64,000 bases of DNA from Candidatus Kaistella beijingensis (lineage in GTDB: Bacteria; Bacteroidota; Bacteroidia; Flavobacteriales; Weeksellaceae). How positions within the stretch are numbered: the first letter of the stretch is position 1; every line of letters starts with the position of its first letter. The stretch is from positions 1,488,001 to 1,552,000 of the forward strand of contig NZ_CP071953.1 in assembly GCF_020084865.1 (NCBI RefSeq), given 5' to 3'. Position numbers and translations under genes: made by a program. The notes below the pieces were generated by a model. The model had not been told where the DNA came from, did no database searches, and saw nothing but the letters and a program-made list of their open reading frames with translations. Of this stretch, positions 6,395 through 10,692 are shown one piece after another.

Positions 6395-6592
6395 TTAAGC
6401 CTGCTCTTCTCTACTAGCGATTCTCTGTTTGTGAGCCGCTTTCAAGTTAGCCTGTCTTTTTGTTACAGAAGGCTTGATGAATTGCTGTCTGCTTCTTAAA
6501 GCTCTTACAACTCCTGTTTTATCAAATTTTCTTTTGTATTTTTTTAGTGCTCTGTCGATAGCTTCGCCATCTTTTACTGGGATAATTAACAT
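6395..6592 (-). CDS. rpsU: 30S ribosomal protein S21
   Basis: The 65-residue product matches bS21: IPVKDGEAIDRALKKYKRKFDKTGVVRALRSRQQFIKPS, with a basic C-terminus. In Bacteroidota S21 is part of the platform complex that hides the anti-Shine-Dalgarno sequence. It has its own promoter box and terminator and precedes xerC. Confidence 0.97.
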   Translation of the reverse strand: MLIIPVKDGEAIDRALKKYKRKFDKTGVVRALRSRQQFIKPSVTKRQANLKAAHKQRIASREEQA

Positions 6593-6623: not shown

Positions 6624-6764
6624 AGATTTTTTTCTGAAATGACAAATTATTTTGTTATTTTTAAAAATTGATATTGGACACTATAATAGTGTTCACGCTG
6701 AAAGTTTGTTGAGTTAAAAAATTTACAAATAAGGATTTTTTCTTGTAACACTGACTTTACATAT

Positions 6765-6985
6765 AAGTTATAGCTTTAAATTGGGATTTCTCACCACCTT
6801 CGTTGGTTCTAAATGACGTATTTACCAATTATTGTGGGTCGGGATTCTTTGCGGCGGCTTCGCCGCCGCAAAGAATCCCGACCGTACCTCATAAAATAAA
6901 AGTCATTCCGAGCGAAGCGAGGAATCTCCAAAAAAAGTTGACAGAAAAATGAGTAAATGCAGAAGATTTATAAAGATATTTTTTT
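6765..6985. repeat. Palindromic repeat unit, copy A, with GIY-YIG remnant
   Basis: A 221-nt unit. It holds an upstream block (6765-6781), a left arm GGATTTCTC...AAATGAC (6784-6817), a central inverted repeat with 22-bp arms and a TTC loop (6837-6883), a right arm GTCATTCC...GGAATCT (6902-6927), then ATGAGTAAAT (6949-6958) and GCAGAAGATTTAT. Left and right arms are approximate inverted copies of each other and each can form its own hairpin (ATTTC/GAAAT or ATTCC/GGAAT outer stem). The tail matches the start of the GIY-YIG gene at 7171 and then jumps to a segment about 69 nt further inside it, as expected for a copy with an internal deletion. Confidence 0.8.
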
Positions 6986-7170
6986 AAGCTGTAGCTTTAA
7001 ATAGAGATTTCTCACCATCTACGATGGTTCGAAATGACAGTCCTCACTATTATTACGGAGGCGGGATTCTTGCGGCGGCGAAGCCGCCGCAAGAATCCCG
7101 CCAAAACCTCATAAAATAAAAGTCATTCCGAGCGAAGCGAGGAATCTTTTGAATTGAAAAAAAAAGTAAA
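6986..7170. repeat. Palindromic repeat unit, copy B
   Basis: The second copy of the unit, offset by 221-222 nt from copy A: upstream block (6986-7002), left arm AGATTTCTC...GAAATGAC (7005-7038) with an ACCATC/GATGGT hairpin, central inverted repeat with 20-bp arms and a GAA loop (7060-7102), right arm (7122-7147) identical to that of copy A, and an A-rich stretch leading directly into the GIY-YIG start codon at 7171. The paired inverted arms resemble REPIN-type elements (two inverted REPs). Confidence 0.82.
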
Positions 7171-7530
7171 ATGAGTAAATTAGGTTTTGTTTACATAATG
7201 ACCAATCAAAATCGCACGACACTTTACCTAGGTGTTACAAATGATTTATGCAGAAGAATTTATGAACACAAAAACCATCTAATCAAAAATTCTTTCACAG
7301 ACAAGTACAATCTAGAGTACTGCATTTATTTTGAGGAATACGCAAGAATGGATTTAGCCATAAAAAGGGAAAAGGAAATCAAAAAATGGAATCGACAGAA
7401 AAAGGAATCCTTAATAAATAAAGTAAATCCTAAATGGGAAATTGCAGCAACGGAAAAAGGGTTTAAAGTCGCTTCTTCATTTTCTGAAGAAATCAAAAAT
7501 ATCATGAATCAACTAAAAACCGAGGAATAG
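7171..7530 (+). CDS. Small GIY-YIG domain endonuclease
   Basis: The 119-residue product is a stand-alone GIY-YIG domain of the YhbQ/UPF0213 type: FVYIMTNQNRTTLYLGVTNDLCRRIYEHK has the VYI and YLG blocks (variant of GIY and YIG), the catalytic Arg in LCRRIYEH and the conserved Glu/Lys-rich helix DLAIKREKEIKKWNRQKK. The family is found widely in Bacteroidota; cellular role is not established. The ATG follows the palindromic unit by 23 nt after its right arm, and the stop is 3 nt before the helicase gene. The context suggests a repeat-associated nuclease, with a deleted copy of the same 5' end next to the first repeat. Confidence 0.88.
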   Translation: MSKLGFVYIMTNQNRTTLYLGVTNDLCRRIYEHKNHLIKNSFTDKYNLEYCIYFEEYARMDLAIKREKEIKKWNRQKKESLINKVNPKWEIAATEKGFKVASSFSEEIKNIMNQLKTEE

Positions 7531-7533
7531 AAT

Positions 7534-10500
7534 ATGAGCAACAATTACACCGTCATCAACGCTTCTGCCGGTTCGGGAAAGACTTATGCTTTGGTGCAGA
7601 ATCTTCTCGCAATCTGTTTGAAATATCCTTCCCAATCCGATAAAATCAGAAATATTTTGGCGCTGACTTTTACCAATAAAGCAGCAAACGAAATGAAGCA
7701 CCGAATTATCGAGTGGCTGAAAAATTTTAAAAAAGAAGATTTCGAGAGCAATCAGGATTTAATCAACATTCAGGAAAAGTTGAAGAAGGAAGGGGTAAAT
7801 GTTTCTTTGAAAGAACTTCACGAACGCTCGAAAAACATTCTCGATTATATTCTGCACCACTACTCGACTTTGAATATTGGAACGATCGACAAGTTCAATT
7901 CACGATTGGTTCGAAGTTTTTCGCACGAACTAGGTTTAGCACAGAATTTCAATTTGGAAATCAATGCAGAACCTTTTCTAATGGAAGCGGTGGATAAAAT
8001 GTTAGAGGAAATCGGCGCTGAAAACAACGTGTCCGATGCGTTTATGGATTATGTGAATTACAGTTTGGATAATAATGATCGAATCAATCTCAACAAAACT
8101 TTGTATGATTCTGCGAAGGAATATGTGCAAGACAAACATTATTTCCGACTGAATGAAAACAAGGATTTCGATTGGGAAGTTTACGAGCAATCGAAGAAAA
8201 ATTTGCGTGAAAGCATTAAAAATTTAAAGGAAGATTCCATTCAAATCGCGCAGGATTGTTTAAGTTTAATGAAAGAAAAAAATCTTCAACCCGATGATTT
8301 TTCCCGTGCAAGTGGCGGAACAATCGGCAAATTCTTTGAAAATGTTTTGAATCATTTTTTTAACAAAGACAAATTCCCGTTTCCTGCGGATGAAGAAGCG
8401 GTGCAGGAAAATTATAGGAAAGGCGCTTCCTCAAAGTCAAAAAACCGACAAGCAGAAATTCTTGAAATCCTCGATTATTTGATTGATAGCCGTCAAAAAA
8501 TCATCTCAAATTATATTCTTTCCAAGAAAAAGGAGAAAATTCTTCAAGCGATTCTGCCATTAAAAGTTAATAAAGAAATACAGGACAAATTAGCGGAAAT
8601 CGAGGAAGAAAACGATTTGGTTTTGCTCTCGAAATTCAATGTTTTGATTCATGAAAATCTTCGGGAAGAACCTTCCTCATTCATTTATGAAAAAGTGGGA
8701 ACTAAGTTTTCACATTATTTCTTCGATGAATTTCAGGACACGTCATTTATTCAGTGGCAAAATTTTCTGCCGTTGAGAGACCACGCTATTTCGCAAGAAA
8801 ACATGAGTTTCACATTGGTTGGAGACCCGAAACAAAGTATTTACCGTTTTCGTGGCGGTGATTCGCAATTGATGCTCGACATTATTAATAAGAAGGAAAA
8901 ATCACAATCATTTGCAGAATTAGAAAACCTCGAAAACAATTGGCGAAGTGCGAAAAACATTGTGGATTTCAACAATGAGCTTTACCAATTCATGTCGAAT
9001 TTTACGCAAGATGAACACAGGGATATTTTTGGAAACGGCTCTCATCAGATTTCAAAGTCAAAAATTAATGGTCGAGTTCTGGTGAATTTAATTGAAAACG
9101 CAACAAAATCAATTTATTACGAAGAAGTGGCCGCGAAAATGCAGGAAGATATTCAATCTTGTTTGGATAATGGTTTCAAGTTTTCCGACATCACCATTCT
9201 TTGTCGTGGAAATTTTGATATTTTCAGTTTCTCGCAACTCTTGGGGAATTTAAAAGTGAATTATCACGGGGAAGAAGTTTACATCAAAACCATCTCAGAA
9301 TCGGGCTTAACACTAAATTTATCGGCAACTCTCTTGGCTTTAACCGAATTTTTGCGTTGGGAACAAAATCCGAAAAATTTGCAGTTTCCGGTGAAAATGC
9401 TGTATTATTTGAAAGTTTTAGGAAGAATAAATGTGGAAGATTTCAGTGCGGAAATGTTGGAAATGCTGCAACTTGGCAACAAATCCGAAATGGAAAACTT
9501 CATTTTTGAGAAATACAGCATCGATTTGAAAAGCAAAGATTTGCTTCAATTGAATCTGTATAATTTCATCGAACATTTTCTGCAAGAATTTTCTGTAAAA
9601 GGAAAAGAAACCGATTTTCTCTTCAATTATCTGGAAATGCTTTTCGGTTATTCGCAAAACGCGGGTTCTACTTTGAAAGATTTTTTAAGATTTTGGGATG
9701 AAGAAGCCAATTCCACCACGATTCAAGCTTCGGAGAATGTCGATGCAGTACAGATTATGACGATTCACAAAGCAAAAGGATTGGAGTTTCCCGTGGTTTT
9801 TTTACCGATGGAAAACGAAAATAAGGACGGCAAATTTTCCAATTGGCTAAACGTGGATTTGGAAAACAGTTTGAGTTCTGTAAATATTAATGGGTTTGAA
9901 AAAGCGTTGGAAACTTACGATTCCGAAATGGCAGATTTTAATCAGAAAAACATTTATCAGAATTTAATTGACCGTTTTTGTTTGCAATATGTGGCGACAA
10001 CCCGGGCTGTAGAACAACTTTTTTTCTACATCCAAAAGCCGAACAAAACGAGCAACCACCTTGAAATCTACGAATTTTTTGAACCAAAAATCCCCACAAA
10101 TGAATTTGGAGAAGAATATTCATCTTTTGATTTGTATGAAGTTTCAGAGCCGGAATTGAAAAAGCAGATTCCTTCAAAAAGTTCGGAGTTTGCAACGATG
10201 CCGATTGATTTTAGTCCTGAAAAAGAAAAAAATCCCGAAGCAATTAAAATTGCAACTCCTTCAAAAAGCTACCAAAACCGTATTGAAAAAGTTAGAATCG
10301 GAATCTTCACCCATGAAATCCTAGCAAAGATCAATTCCGCAAGAGACGTGGAAAAAGTTTTGGAAGCCTACCTTTTAGAAGGAACAATAACTTCCGAGGA
10401 AAAAATTGAAATCACCGATCGGATTTTCAATATCATTAATAACGAAAAATACTCAAAATATTTTATTGAAAATCAATTGGTTATCAATGAAAAAGACATC

Positions 10501-10692
10501 ATGATTTCCGAAAACGGTGACTCCAAAATTTATCGTCCCGACCGAATGATTGAAACTGAAAACGGAACCATAATCATCGATTTCAAGACAGGAGAGGAAA
10601 AAGAAAAGCACCAACAGCAACTCAATGAGTACAAATCGGTGCTTGAAAAATTGGGTAAAACCGTGGTGGAAACGAAGATTGTATATGTATAA
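7534..10692 (+). CDS. UvrD-family helicase fused to RecB-type nuclease (AddA/RecB-like)
   Basis: The 1052-residue enzyme has an N-terminal superfamily 1 helicase core: Walker A ASAGSGKT (residues 10-17), TFTNKAANEMKHRI (motif Ia), DEFQDTS (Walker B), GDPKQSIYRFRGGD (motif III) and VQIMTIHKAKGLEFPVVFLP (motif V). The C-terminal 150 residues hold a PD-(D/E)XK nuclease: PDRMIETENGTIIIDFKTG then a QQ..EY helix. This is the AddA/RecB layout for processing double-strand breaks before recombination. The usual AddB partner is not adjacent. It starts 3 nt after the GIY-YIG gene on the same strand and may be co-transcribed with it. Confidence 0.9.
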   Translation: MSNNYTVINASAGSGKTYALVQNLLAICLKYPSQSDKIRNILALTFTNKAANEMKHRIIEWLKNFKKEDFESNQDLINIQEKLKKEGVNVSLKELHERSKNILDYILHHYSTLNIGTIDKFNSRLVRSFSHELGLAQNFNLEINAEPFLMEAVDKMLEEIGAENNVSDAFMDYVNYSLDNNDRINLNKTLYDSAKEYVQDKHYFRLNENKDFDWEVYEQSKKNLRESIKNLKEDSIQIAQDCLSLMKEKNLQPDDFSRASGGTIGKFFENVLNHFFNKDKFPFPADEEAVQENYRKGASSKSKNRQAEILEILDYLIDSRQKIISNYILSKKKEKILQAILPLKVNKEIQDKLAEIEEENDLVLLSKFNVLIHENLREEPSSFIYEKVGTKFSHYFFDEFQDTSFIQWQNFLPLRDHAISQENMSFTLVGDPKQSIYRFRGGDSQLMLDIINKKEKSQSFAELENLENNWRSAKNIVDFNNELYQFMSNFTQDEHRDIFGNGSHQISKSKINGRVLVNLIENATKSIYYEEVAAKMQEDIQSCLDNGFKFSDITILCRGNFDIFSFSQLLGNLKVNYHGEEVYIKTISESGLTLNLSATLLALTEFLRWEQNPKNLQFPVKMLYYLKVLGRINVEDFSAEMLEMLQLGNKSEMENFIFEKYSIDLKSKDLLQLNLYNFIEHFLQEFSVKGKETDFLFNYLEMLFGYSQNAGSTLKDFLRFWDEEANSTTIQASENVDAVQIMTIHKAKGLEFPVVFLPMENENKDGKFSNWLNVDLENSLSSVNINGFEKALETYDSEMADFNQKNIYQNLIDRFCLQYVATTRAVEQLFFYIQKPNKTSNHLEIYEFFEPKIPTNEFGEEYSSFDLYEVSEPELKKQIPSKSSEFATMPIDFSPEKEKNPEAIKIATPSKSYQNRIEKVRIGIFTHEILAKINSARDVEKVLEAYLLEGTITSEEKIEITDRIFNIINNEKYSKYFIENQLVINEKDIMISENGDSKIYRPDRMIETENGTIIIDFKTGEEKEKHQQQLNEYKSVLEKLGKTVVETKIVYV

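Follow-up and report, generated by a model that had tools for sequence, protein, structure and literature searches.

A small GIY-YIG nuclease gene and the GTC-tagged inverted repeats beside it appear to form a selfish system of the REP kind, most likely one driven by the nuclease in place of a RAYT. The RAYTs, or REP-associated tyrosine transposases, are kin to IS200/IS605 and their genes are flanked by their own repeats (PMC3733652). The window analyzed here is a stretch of 64,000 nucleotides (C1:1488001–1552000) of the single 2,816,191-base contig of Candidatus Kaistella beijingensis (genome G000), and it probably holds a tandem, partly decayed copy of this two-part selfish system, a GIY-YIG gene with its own repeat family. 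Gene and repeat are paired through co-location, the matching of repeat type to nuclease, a high copy number where the gene is intact, empty sites, selection on the protein and one clear gene-deleted unit. The original prediction, that the repeat travels with the nuclease gene as REPs and REPINs do with RAYTs, draws support from proximity, the clade-tied repeat type, expansion, empty sites and the tag-free loci of Y1 transposases, and the nuclease would be what moves the repeat.

The repeat units and the GIY-YIG gene of the window lie between the genes for ribosomal protein S21 and a UvrD-type helicase (Table 1). In both tandem units a perfect GC-rich palindrome stands between a left and a right arm. 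Matching blocks lie at the constant offset that had been predicted (220–222 nt as measured), and the GIY-YIG gene expected after the second copy is intact. Each unit had also been predicted to carry two inverted, hairpin-forming arms. The two inverted pairs of short palindromes, a feature of RAYT-REPIN systems, are present, but for three of the four arms the fold is not stronger than that of shuffled DNA (z of +0.2 for left arm A and −0.2 for each right arm), and only left arm B folds moderately (z −2.5), against about −10 for the central palindromes. Evidence that the arms are hairpins comes from the wider family and not from the four copies in the window. The window right arm folds into 5 bp starting ATT, an internal loop, 2 bp and a 3-nt loop. 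The GTC tags of the four arms are preceded by C, A, T and A, giving CGTC and TGTC in the left arms and AGTC in the right arms. No arm stands 3' of the gene in the window, so the complete form of the unit is absent there.

Table 1. Features of the repeat and nuclease locus, in positions of the window.
Feature	Position	Strand	Remarks
Ribosomal protein S21 gene (rpsU)	6395–6592	minus	
Direct repeat	6764–6871 / 6985–7092		73% identity, offset 221
Left arm, unit A	6785–6817	−	'<' orientation; minus-strand reading starts GTCATTT, C before it gives a CGTC tag; fold no better than shuffles
Central GC-rich palindrome, unit A	6837–6883	.	Perfect; 22-nt arms, 3-nt loop; DNA fold −31.7 kcal/mol, z −10
Direct repeat	6871–6927 / 7091–7147		93% identity, offset 220
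Right arm, unit A	6902–6927	+	'>' orientation; is the GTC-tagged repeat of the genome; alone, fold no better than shuffles
Direct repeat	6943–6958 / 7165–7180		Offset 222
Probable GIY-YIG gene remnant	6949–6971	+	ATGAGTAAAT plus match to gene nt 70–83; sits between '>' and '<' arms
Left arm, unit B	7006–7038	−	'<' orientation; TGTC tag on minus strand; fold z −2.5
Central GC-rich palindrome, unit B	7060–7102	.	Perfect; 20-nt arms, 3-nt loop; folds strongly (z about −10)
Right arm, unit B	7122–7147	+	'>' orientation; ends 23 nt before the gene start codon
GIY-YIG nuclease gene	7171–7530	+	119 aa; PF01541, 52.6 bits
UvrD-type helicase gene	7534–10692	plus	

The first unit had been read as followed by a gene copy that has lost most of its length. 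ATGAGTAAAT, on which this reading builds, is found just twice when both strands of the 64 kb are searched, at distances of 21 and 23 nt from the right arms that precede it. The further match, in which the continuation of copy A (ATGCAGAAG-ATTTAT) aligns with gene positions 67–83 with one gap, is borderline: P is about 0.005–0.008 when two bases common to both sides of the presumed deletion are counted and about 0.05–0.065 without them, and in a blastn scan the match stays short of the E 1e-3 threshold. From this borderline match a gene deletion in copy A appears likely, if not proven. Gene-deleted units do exist in the family, as on pSymB of Sinorhizobium meliloti Ak57, where the last 81 nt of the gene remain between '>' and '<' arms (93.8%, E 4e-32) with an intact unit alongside, and the first unit of the window is probably one. 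A 'gene fragment' at another locus (L213) was dropped because it overlaps the repeat unit itself.

The possibility that the window pair is unique was rejected, as the right arm occurs 18 times in the 2.8-Mb genome (three or fewer mismatches) and the reversed control not at all. Eleven of the 13 repeat sites examined in this genome lie outside ORFs of at least 100 aa. Many of the copies are gene-less pairs around the GC-rich palindrome with their tags inward, unlike most other loci. Palindromes like TTTTTTGCGGCGGC-TTC-GCCGCCGCAAAAAA also occur alone, without arms and in a recurring context (C1:1012357, 1452914, 2337711, 2402131, 2566061 and 387176; loci L013–L017 and L025), as a second family sharing the palindrome. 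A second GIY-YIG gene of the same genome (C1:2390722) has a GTC-tagged repeat of another kind on both sides.

Across 36 genomes of the genus, the window repeat type (REP-B) was counted 18 times in G000, once in G032 and 19 times in total across 14 of the other 34 genomes (0–3 copies per genome), a count that favors G000 because the pattern was taken from it. G000 is the sole genome with an intact nuclease of the window's clade, and in G032 the single repeat lies beside a broken copy of this gene. Genus-wide, repeat expansion is limited to the genome with an intact cognate gene, which is also the source of the pattern. For repeat type A, carriers of a clade-A gene exceed non-carriers (median 10 vs 2 copies, P 0.0017), and the type is frequent in some genomes that have no clade-A gene (16 copies in G015, 14 in G012, 9 in G003 and 8 in G019). 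The ORF lists of 15 repeat clusters with no GIY-YIG match, inspected by eye for a second nuclease gene, held no recurrent gene. One pair of GTCATTGCGAG repeats (L253, G023:C1:324238–324347) lies inside a 586-aa ORF, nucleotide-sugar dehydrogenase-like by eye; intragenic repeats are known for the Rickettsia RPEs (PMC3733652).

Relatives of the nuclease were found in 30 of the 36 genomes (70 matches, 0–6 per genome). The analysis used 67 of these; the row of the window itself was omitted, as were two G030 fragments belonging to genes that had been counted before. In all, 56 regions were taken, mostly of about 16 kb. The tag GTCAYNSYGAG occurs 37 times within 300 bp of a gene or gene group vs 10 times across the whole of the 2–8 kb flanks, and the reversed pattern gave four matches, none within 600 bp. 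The strict tag lies within 300 bp of 15 of the 46 genes outside a tRNA-linked clade and of 0 of the 21 inside it, with corresponding counts of 30 and 4 for the looser tag GTCAYNSYG. A test for inverted repeats in the flanks, with three loci skipped, placed 22 of 53 loci above 99% of the null and so gave a less distinct result than the tag. The tRNA-linked clade is separate, with GIY-YIG genes of about 80–100 aa directly downstream of tRNA genes (L122–L136). In the flanks as read, an apparent partial copy of the tRNA 3' half and its terminator follows 3' of each gene, often in tandem, as if every arrival duplicated the tRNA end (e.g., G013:C1:1821365–1822072, G016:C1:2911722–2912286, G010:C4:66850–67462 and G028:C22:294923–296307).

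The hairpin repeats read in the gene flanks differ by clade and start with GTCA in most clades. Eleven repeat types, named by eye from the flanks and including tRNA 3' ends (one type) and one type without the tag, need ten changes on the nuclease protein tree, which is the minimum, against a shuffled mean of 37. The tree holds 66 rows, 61 of them labeled and five without a repeat label; L099 and L112 (<50 aa) were left out. Because the types had been named by eye, a blind test was run in which 300 bp of flanking DNA on each side were compared by blastn, with positional orthologs removed (61 of 2128 pairs). Between different genomes, a flank repeat is shared by 34 of 43 pairs at protein identity of at least 70%, by 41 of 82 at 55–70%, by 11 of 390 at 40–55% and by 13 of 1502 below 40%, while within one genome none of the 49 pairs under 55% identity shares one. 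Together with the tree, these results indicate that the repeat follows the nuclease and not the genome, and the tie of repeat type to gene lineage that characterizes RAYT-REPIN systems is thus found here as well. At one locus (L106, G029:C1:1619751–1622004), four tandem gene-and-repeat units with genes 94–97% identical and the repeat ACTTCTCGATACGC...CGAAGTGACG form a live-looking array. The repeats around a further GIY-YIG clade (L116–L119 and L121, also L104, L105, L109 and L115; the flanks of L119–L121 were read in part) lack the usual GTCA tag, examples being GGTGCCTTCGACAGGCTCAGGCACC and GGTGGTTGAGCCTGTCGAAACCACC, and the pairing may for this reason exceed the GTC tag.

The association of gene and repeat is general and specific, and it extends beyond the genus. 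A contig scan with a 12-sequence alignment returned at least 567 relatives, of which the best 80 were analyzed; these come from 20 named phyla, with the phylum unresolved for two records. In these loci GTCAYNSYGAG reaches 2.48 copies per kb in the 250 bp ahead of the gene and 2.14 in the 250 bp behind it, vs 0.04 per kb at 4–8 kb, and the reversed control has two matches in total, none within 1 kb. Restricted to intergenic DNA, the tag excess is 9- to 19-fold, depending on pattern and mask. The original prediction that repeats would adjoin GIY-YIG genes above chance agrees with these controls and with a comparison to other ORFs of the same loci (79 of the 80, one locus having no other ORF). 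The strict tag lies within 300 bp in 38 of 79 loci vs a mean of 4.5 and a maximum of 11 in 5000 draws, and the looser tag in 54 of 79 vs 10.6 expected and a maximum of 20. Over all 80 loci the looser tag is found within 300 bp in 55 and absent in 25; it is present in 16 of the 20 named phyla and in none of the loci from Fibrobacterota (0/2), Spirochaetota, Planctomycetota and Balneolota (0/1 each). These tag counts are an undercount, as the pattern misses the CGTCG and CCTC variants. Of the looser tags, 180 in number, 142 have an exact 5-nt stem complement, vs a mean of 6.6 and a maximum of 16 after shuffling. The nearest arms are oriented >gene< in 23 loci, <gene> in 3, in the same direction on both sides in 8 and on one side only in 21, with no arm in 25. 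The commonest complete form is a gene between two inverted repeats with GTC tags outward, about 345–420 nt long (nine loci in which both arms are close).

Named species extend this association. A tblastn search of plasmid records with a clade-A protein returned 33 records, and the flanks were read for ten of them and for one Neisseria record. The interval from sufB to sufC in Azospirillum lipoferum 4B holds the gene, flanked on either side by a pair of CGTCATCCCCGCGAAGGCGGGGATCC-type repeats, and the sufB-sufC gaps of A. ramasamyi (91 nt), A. oryzae (87 nt) and Azospirillum sp. B510 (129 nt) are short and hold neither the gene nor such repeats. Inverted CGTCGCCCCGTG repeats, a variant uncounted by the tag pattern, stand on both sides of the gene in Novosphingobium aromaticivorans, and CCTC-tagged repeats occur in Rhizobium L51/94 (downstream only) and Sinorhizobium K101. 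In Neisseria gonorrhoeae (two records, of which a 2.17-Mb one deposited as a plasmid was read), the gene is flanked on either side by CGTCATTCCCG repeats in inverted orientation. These repeats are presumably dRS3, given that CGTC-1 of the Neisseriae is equated with dRS3 in PMC3733652. Exact CGTC tags stand beside GIY-YIG genes in Azospirillum, Neisseria and others.

Empty sites, whose presence in sister strains had been proposed as a test, were found at several loci. At the window site, between rpsU and the helicase gene, the distance between start codons is 941 nt in G000 and 738 nt in G032, and the gap is 87–92 nt in the 28 others of the 30 genomes examined (of 36). Two further sites exist in three states. 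Behind an oxidoreductase gene (24 of 36 loci examined), a repeat-gene-repeat unit is present in G001, G006 and G009, single or decayed repeats remain in G029, G035, G019 and G033, and the other 17 have no repeat, one two-mismatch match in G032 being no repeat by eye. Behind an EF-G-like gene (17 of 32 loci examined), G020 and G014 hold a repeat pair alone, G023 and G029 hold pairs with the gene, and the other 13 hold nothing. Many empty sites hold no repeat at all, and whole units therefore seem to arrive at virgin sites. The loci of the G004 clade-A and clade-D genes were too rearranged for a clean empty site to be found, none was found in Spirosoma, and no strain pair showed a single recent insertion with clean ends.

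The nuclease is kept functional, since dN/dS between nuclease genes is 0.05–0.19 in nine of ten pairs (the tenth was not computable). The window protein has PF01541 as its sole Pfam domain, well above the cut-off of 22.6 bits, and Y8, Y19, R29 and E67, which we take to be the catalytic GIY-YIG positions, are among the invariant columns in an alignment of 12 sequences, a feature shared with homing endonucleases. The nearest solved relatives by sequence are the UPF0213 proteins of PDB entries 1zg2 (E 4.5e-8) and 1ywl (E 3.4e-5), which are likewise small GIY-YIG proteins but differ in being named hypothetical. YhbQ is presumably also a protein of the UPF0213 kind, and a literature search for YhbQ with GIY-YIG found no paper. 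No NCBIfam or PADLOC family was found for the nuclease, and phages gave no relative of the clade-A query protein at E 1e-5.

From these observations we infer that the nuclease recognizes and cleaves the repeats and so brings about their copying or movement. It would recognize the repeat of its own clade and cut or nick the repeat hairpin in single-stranded or cruciform DNA, after which host repair would copy the repeat-gene-repeat unit, or the repeats only, to new places. GIY-YIG enzymes hydrolyze DNA and, to our knowledge, do not rejoin ends, so host repair would have to complete the process. Such a system would work much as RAYT and REP do, but through hydrolytic cleavage and host recombination, and in this it would resemble, in part, a homing endonuclease whose sites are dispersed. 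Where the gene is lost by internal deletion, gene-less, REPIN-like repeat pairs would be left behind and persist as dispersed copies.

Several other explanations can be weighed against this one. The repeats might be spread by something else, with a free-standing GIY-YIG homing endonuclease inserting into them because they are abundant, an account that we consider unlikely but the strongest of the alternatives. Among Sphingobium plasmids, seven are filled by megablast (three were read), two carry a single symmetric repeat and two carry neither gene nor repeat. The single repeat at the gene-less site (TomTYG74, TomTYG64) corresponds to the outer halves of the two arms in the filled plasmids, as expected if the gene had entered it. 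In a tree of the flanking DNA the three filled plasmids used form one nested clade (98/100), with weak branches placing the others (48/74, 64/97), and in Sinorhizobium K101 the place of the gene-deleted unit of S. meliloti Ak57 is taken by a similar single repeat. These are two cases compatible with a gene that interrupts its own target site. However, on sequence grounds the Sphingobium alleles would fit precise loss of the gene via an 8-nt direct repeat inside the arms equally well, and many empty sites have no such repeat. Homing into foreign repeats also does not demand that expansion accompany an intact cognate gene or that repeat type follow the nuclease. The single-repeat alleles fit a homing-like step, and the virgin empty sites fit movement of the whole unit. 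A domesticated role in repair, in which the nuclease cuts repeat hairpins during replication and the adjoining repeats regulate the gene, with neither moving now, is improbable. Strong purifying selection and the conserved catalytic columns would suit it, as would the action of UvrC- and Slx1-kind GIY-YIG enzymes in DNA repair or on DNA junctions (PMC1564403), but the patchy presence of the gene, its differing sites in related genomes, the tandem arrays and the decayed copies point to a selfish element more than to a housekeeping gene.

It is very unlikely that a Y1 (RAYT-like) transposase of the same genomes moves the repeats, with the GIY-YIG gene as cargo. Y1 genes are indeed widespread, at 96 places in 30 of the 36 genomes, including three in G000, one of which (C1:2606767) lies about 4 kb from a repeat pair (C1:2602645). 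Yet GTC tags are absent from all 20 Y1 loci examined, whether the distance from the domain match is set at 300 bp or at 1 kb, and on this count the cargo explanation was rejected; G015 and G031, in which no Y1 gene was detected, still have nuclease-repeat pairs, and the repeat type would have no reason to track a cargo gene. The three Y1 genes of G000 (L399, L413 and L414) have, by eye, their own flanking palindromes, such as GGTGCGAAGCACC and GGGCTTTAGCCCG, and two REP-like systems may therefore coexist in this genome, where help from Y1 enzymes in trans is possible. Coincidence, by which small genes and repeats would simply gather in permissive intergenic DNA, has next to no chance of being the explanation: the repeats are mostly intergenic, as noted for G000, but the intergenic-only and other-ORF controls reject chance co-location and the matching of types argues further against it.

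A REP-like system driven by the GIY-YIG nuclease remains the preferred reading, and it shares with REP/REPIN-RAYT systems the short palindromes arranged as inverted pairs, a gene that has its own type of repeat on the flanks, and dispersed gene-less derivatives (PMC3733652). It differs in its protein, which is of the GIY-YIG and not the HUH/Y1 transposase kind, in its tag, which is GTC where that of the RAYT-associated REPs is GTAG, and in the tag-free Y1 loci of the same genus. Another likeness is to the CGTC-tagged REPs of five phyla described by Di Nocera et al. (2013, PMC3733652), which include dRS3 of Neisseria and RPE-4 and RPE-6 of Rickettsia. These are defined by a CGTC (or TGTC, CCTC) tag and a stem of 8–9 bp that starts with A-T pairs and closes on a loop of 4–5 nt; they are reported as not associated with transposase genes, and the main text of that paper does not mention GIY-YIG (PMC3733652). 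Common to both are the GTC tag, followed mostly by a stem starting A-T, and the occurrence of dimers, and tags were found here beside GIY-YIG genes in Azospirillum lipoferum, Novosphingobium aromaticivorans, Sinorhizobium meliloti and Neisseria, all named in that paper. The stems of the window arms are shorter and interrupted, and the CGTC REPs were published without a dedicated mobility gene, whereas here they are associated with GIY-YIG genes that would mobilize them.

A further comparison is with free-standing GIY-YIG homing endonucleases of the I-TevI kind. The nuclease described here has the same catalytic domain and a selfish-looking gene in common with them, and two cases are compatible with gain or loss at a short site. 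It differs in that whole units also occur at repeat-free sites and repeats are dispersed without the gene, and in that the window protein has the GIY-YIG domain only (Pfam) and the window has no intron (tRNAs are the only Rfam matches). The original prediction knew of no described REP-type system of the GIY-YIG kind, and among the papers listed in a search of titles and abstract beginnings in the open-licence literature, without preprints, no published description of a GIY-YIG and REP pairing was found. What would be new here is a REP system with an unrelated enzyme; the CGTC repeats themselves were already known.

The recurrence of the pairing across many phyla points to a system that spreads repeats and for which the enzyme had been lacking. 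Di Nocera et al. (2013) left the mobilizer of the CGTC REPs open, including that of Neisseria dRS3 and the Rickettsia RPEs (PMC3733652), and the small GIY-YIG protein is a candidate for this enzyme. There is perhaps an even chance that bacterial GTC-tagged REPs as a whole are miniature elements run by dedicated GIY-YIG nucleases, in some sixteen or more phyla. The candidate is conserved at its catalytic positions and has matched repeats in many phyla, which makes the question testable with one protein of 100 residues. If true, this would be a second, enzymatically unrelated invention of the REP lifestyle, with a hydrolytic nuclease and host repair in the place of the transposase. A role would then be found for many genes whose sole annotation is 'GIY-YIG nuclease family protein', and the transposase-free spread of repeats would be a new route of genome change.
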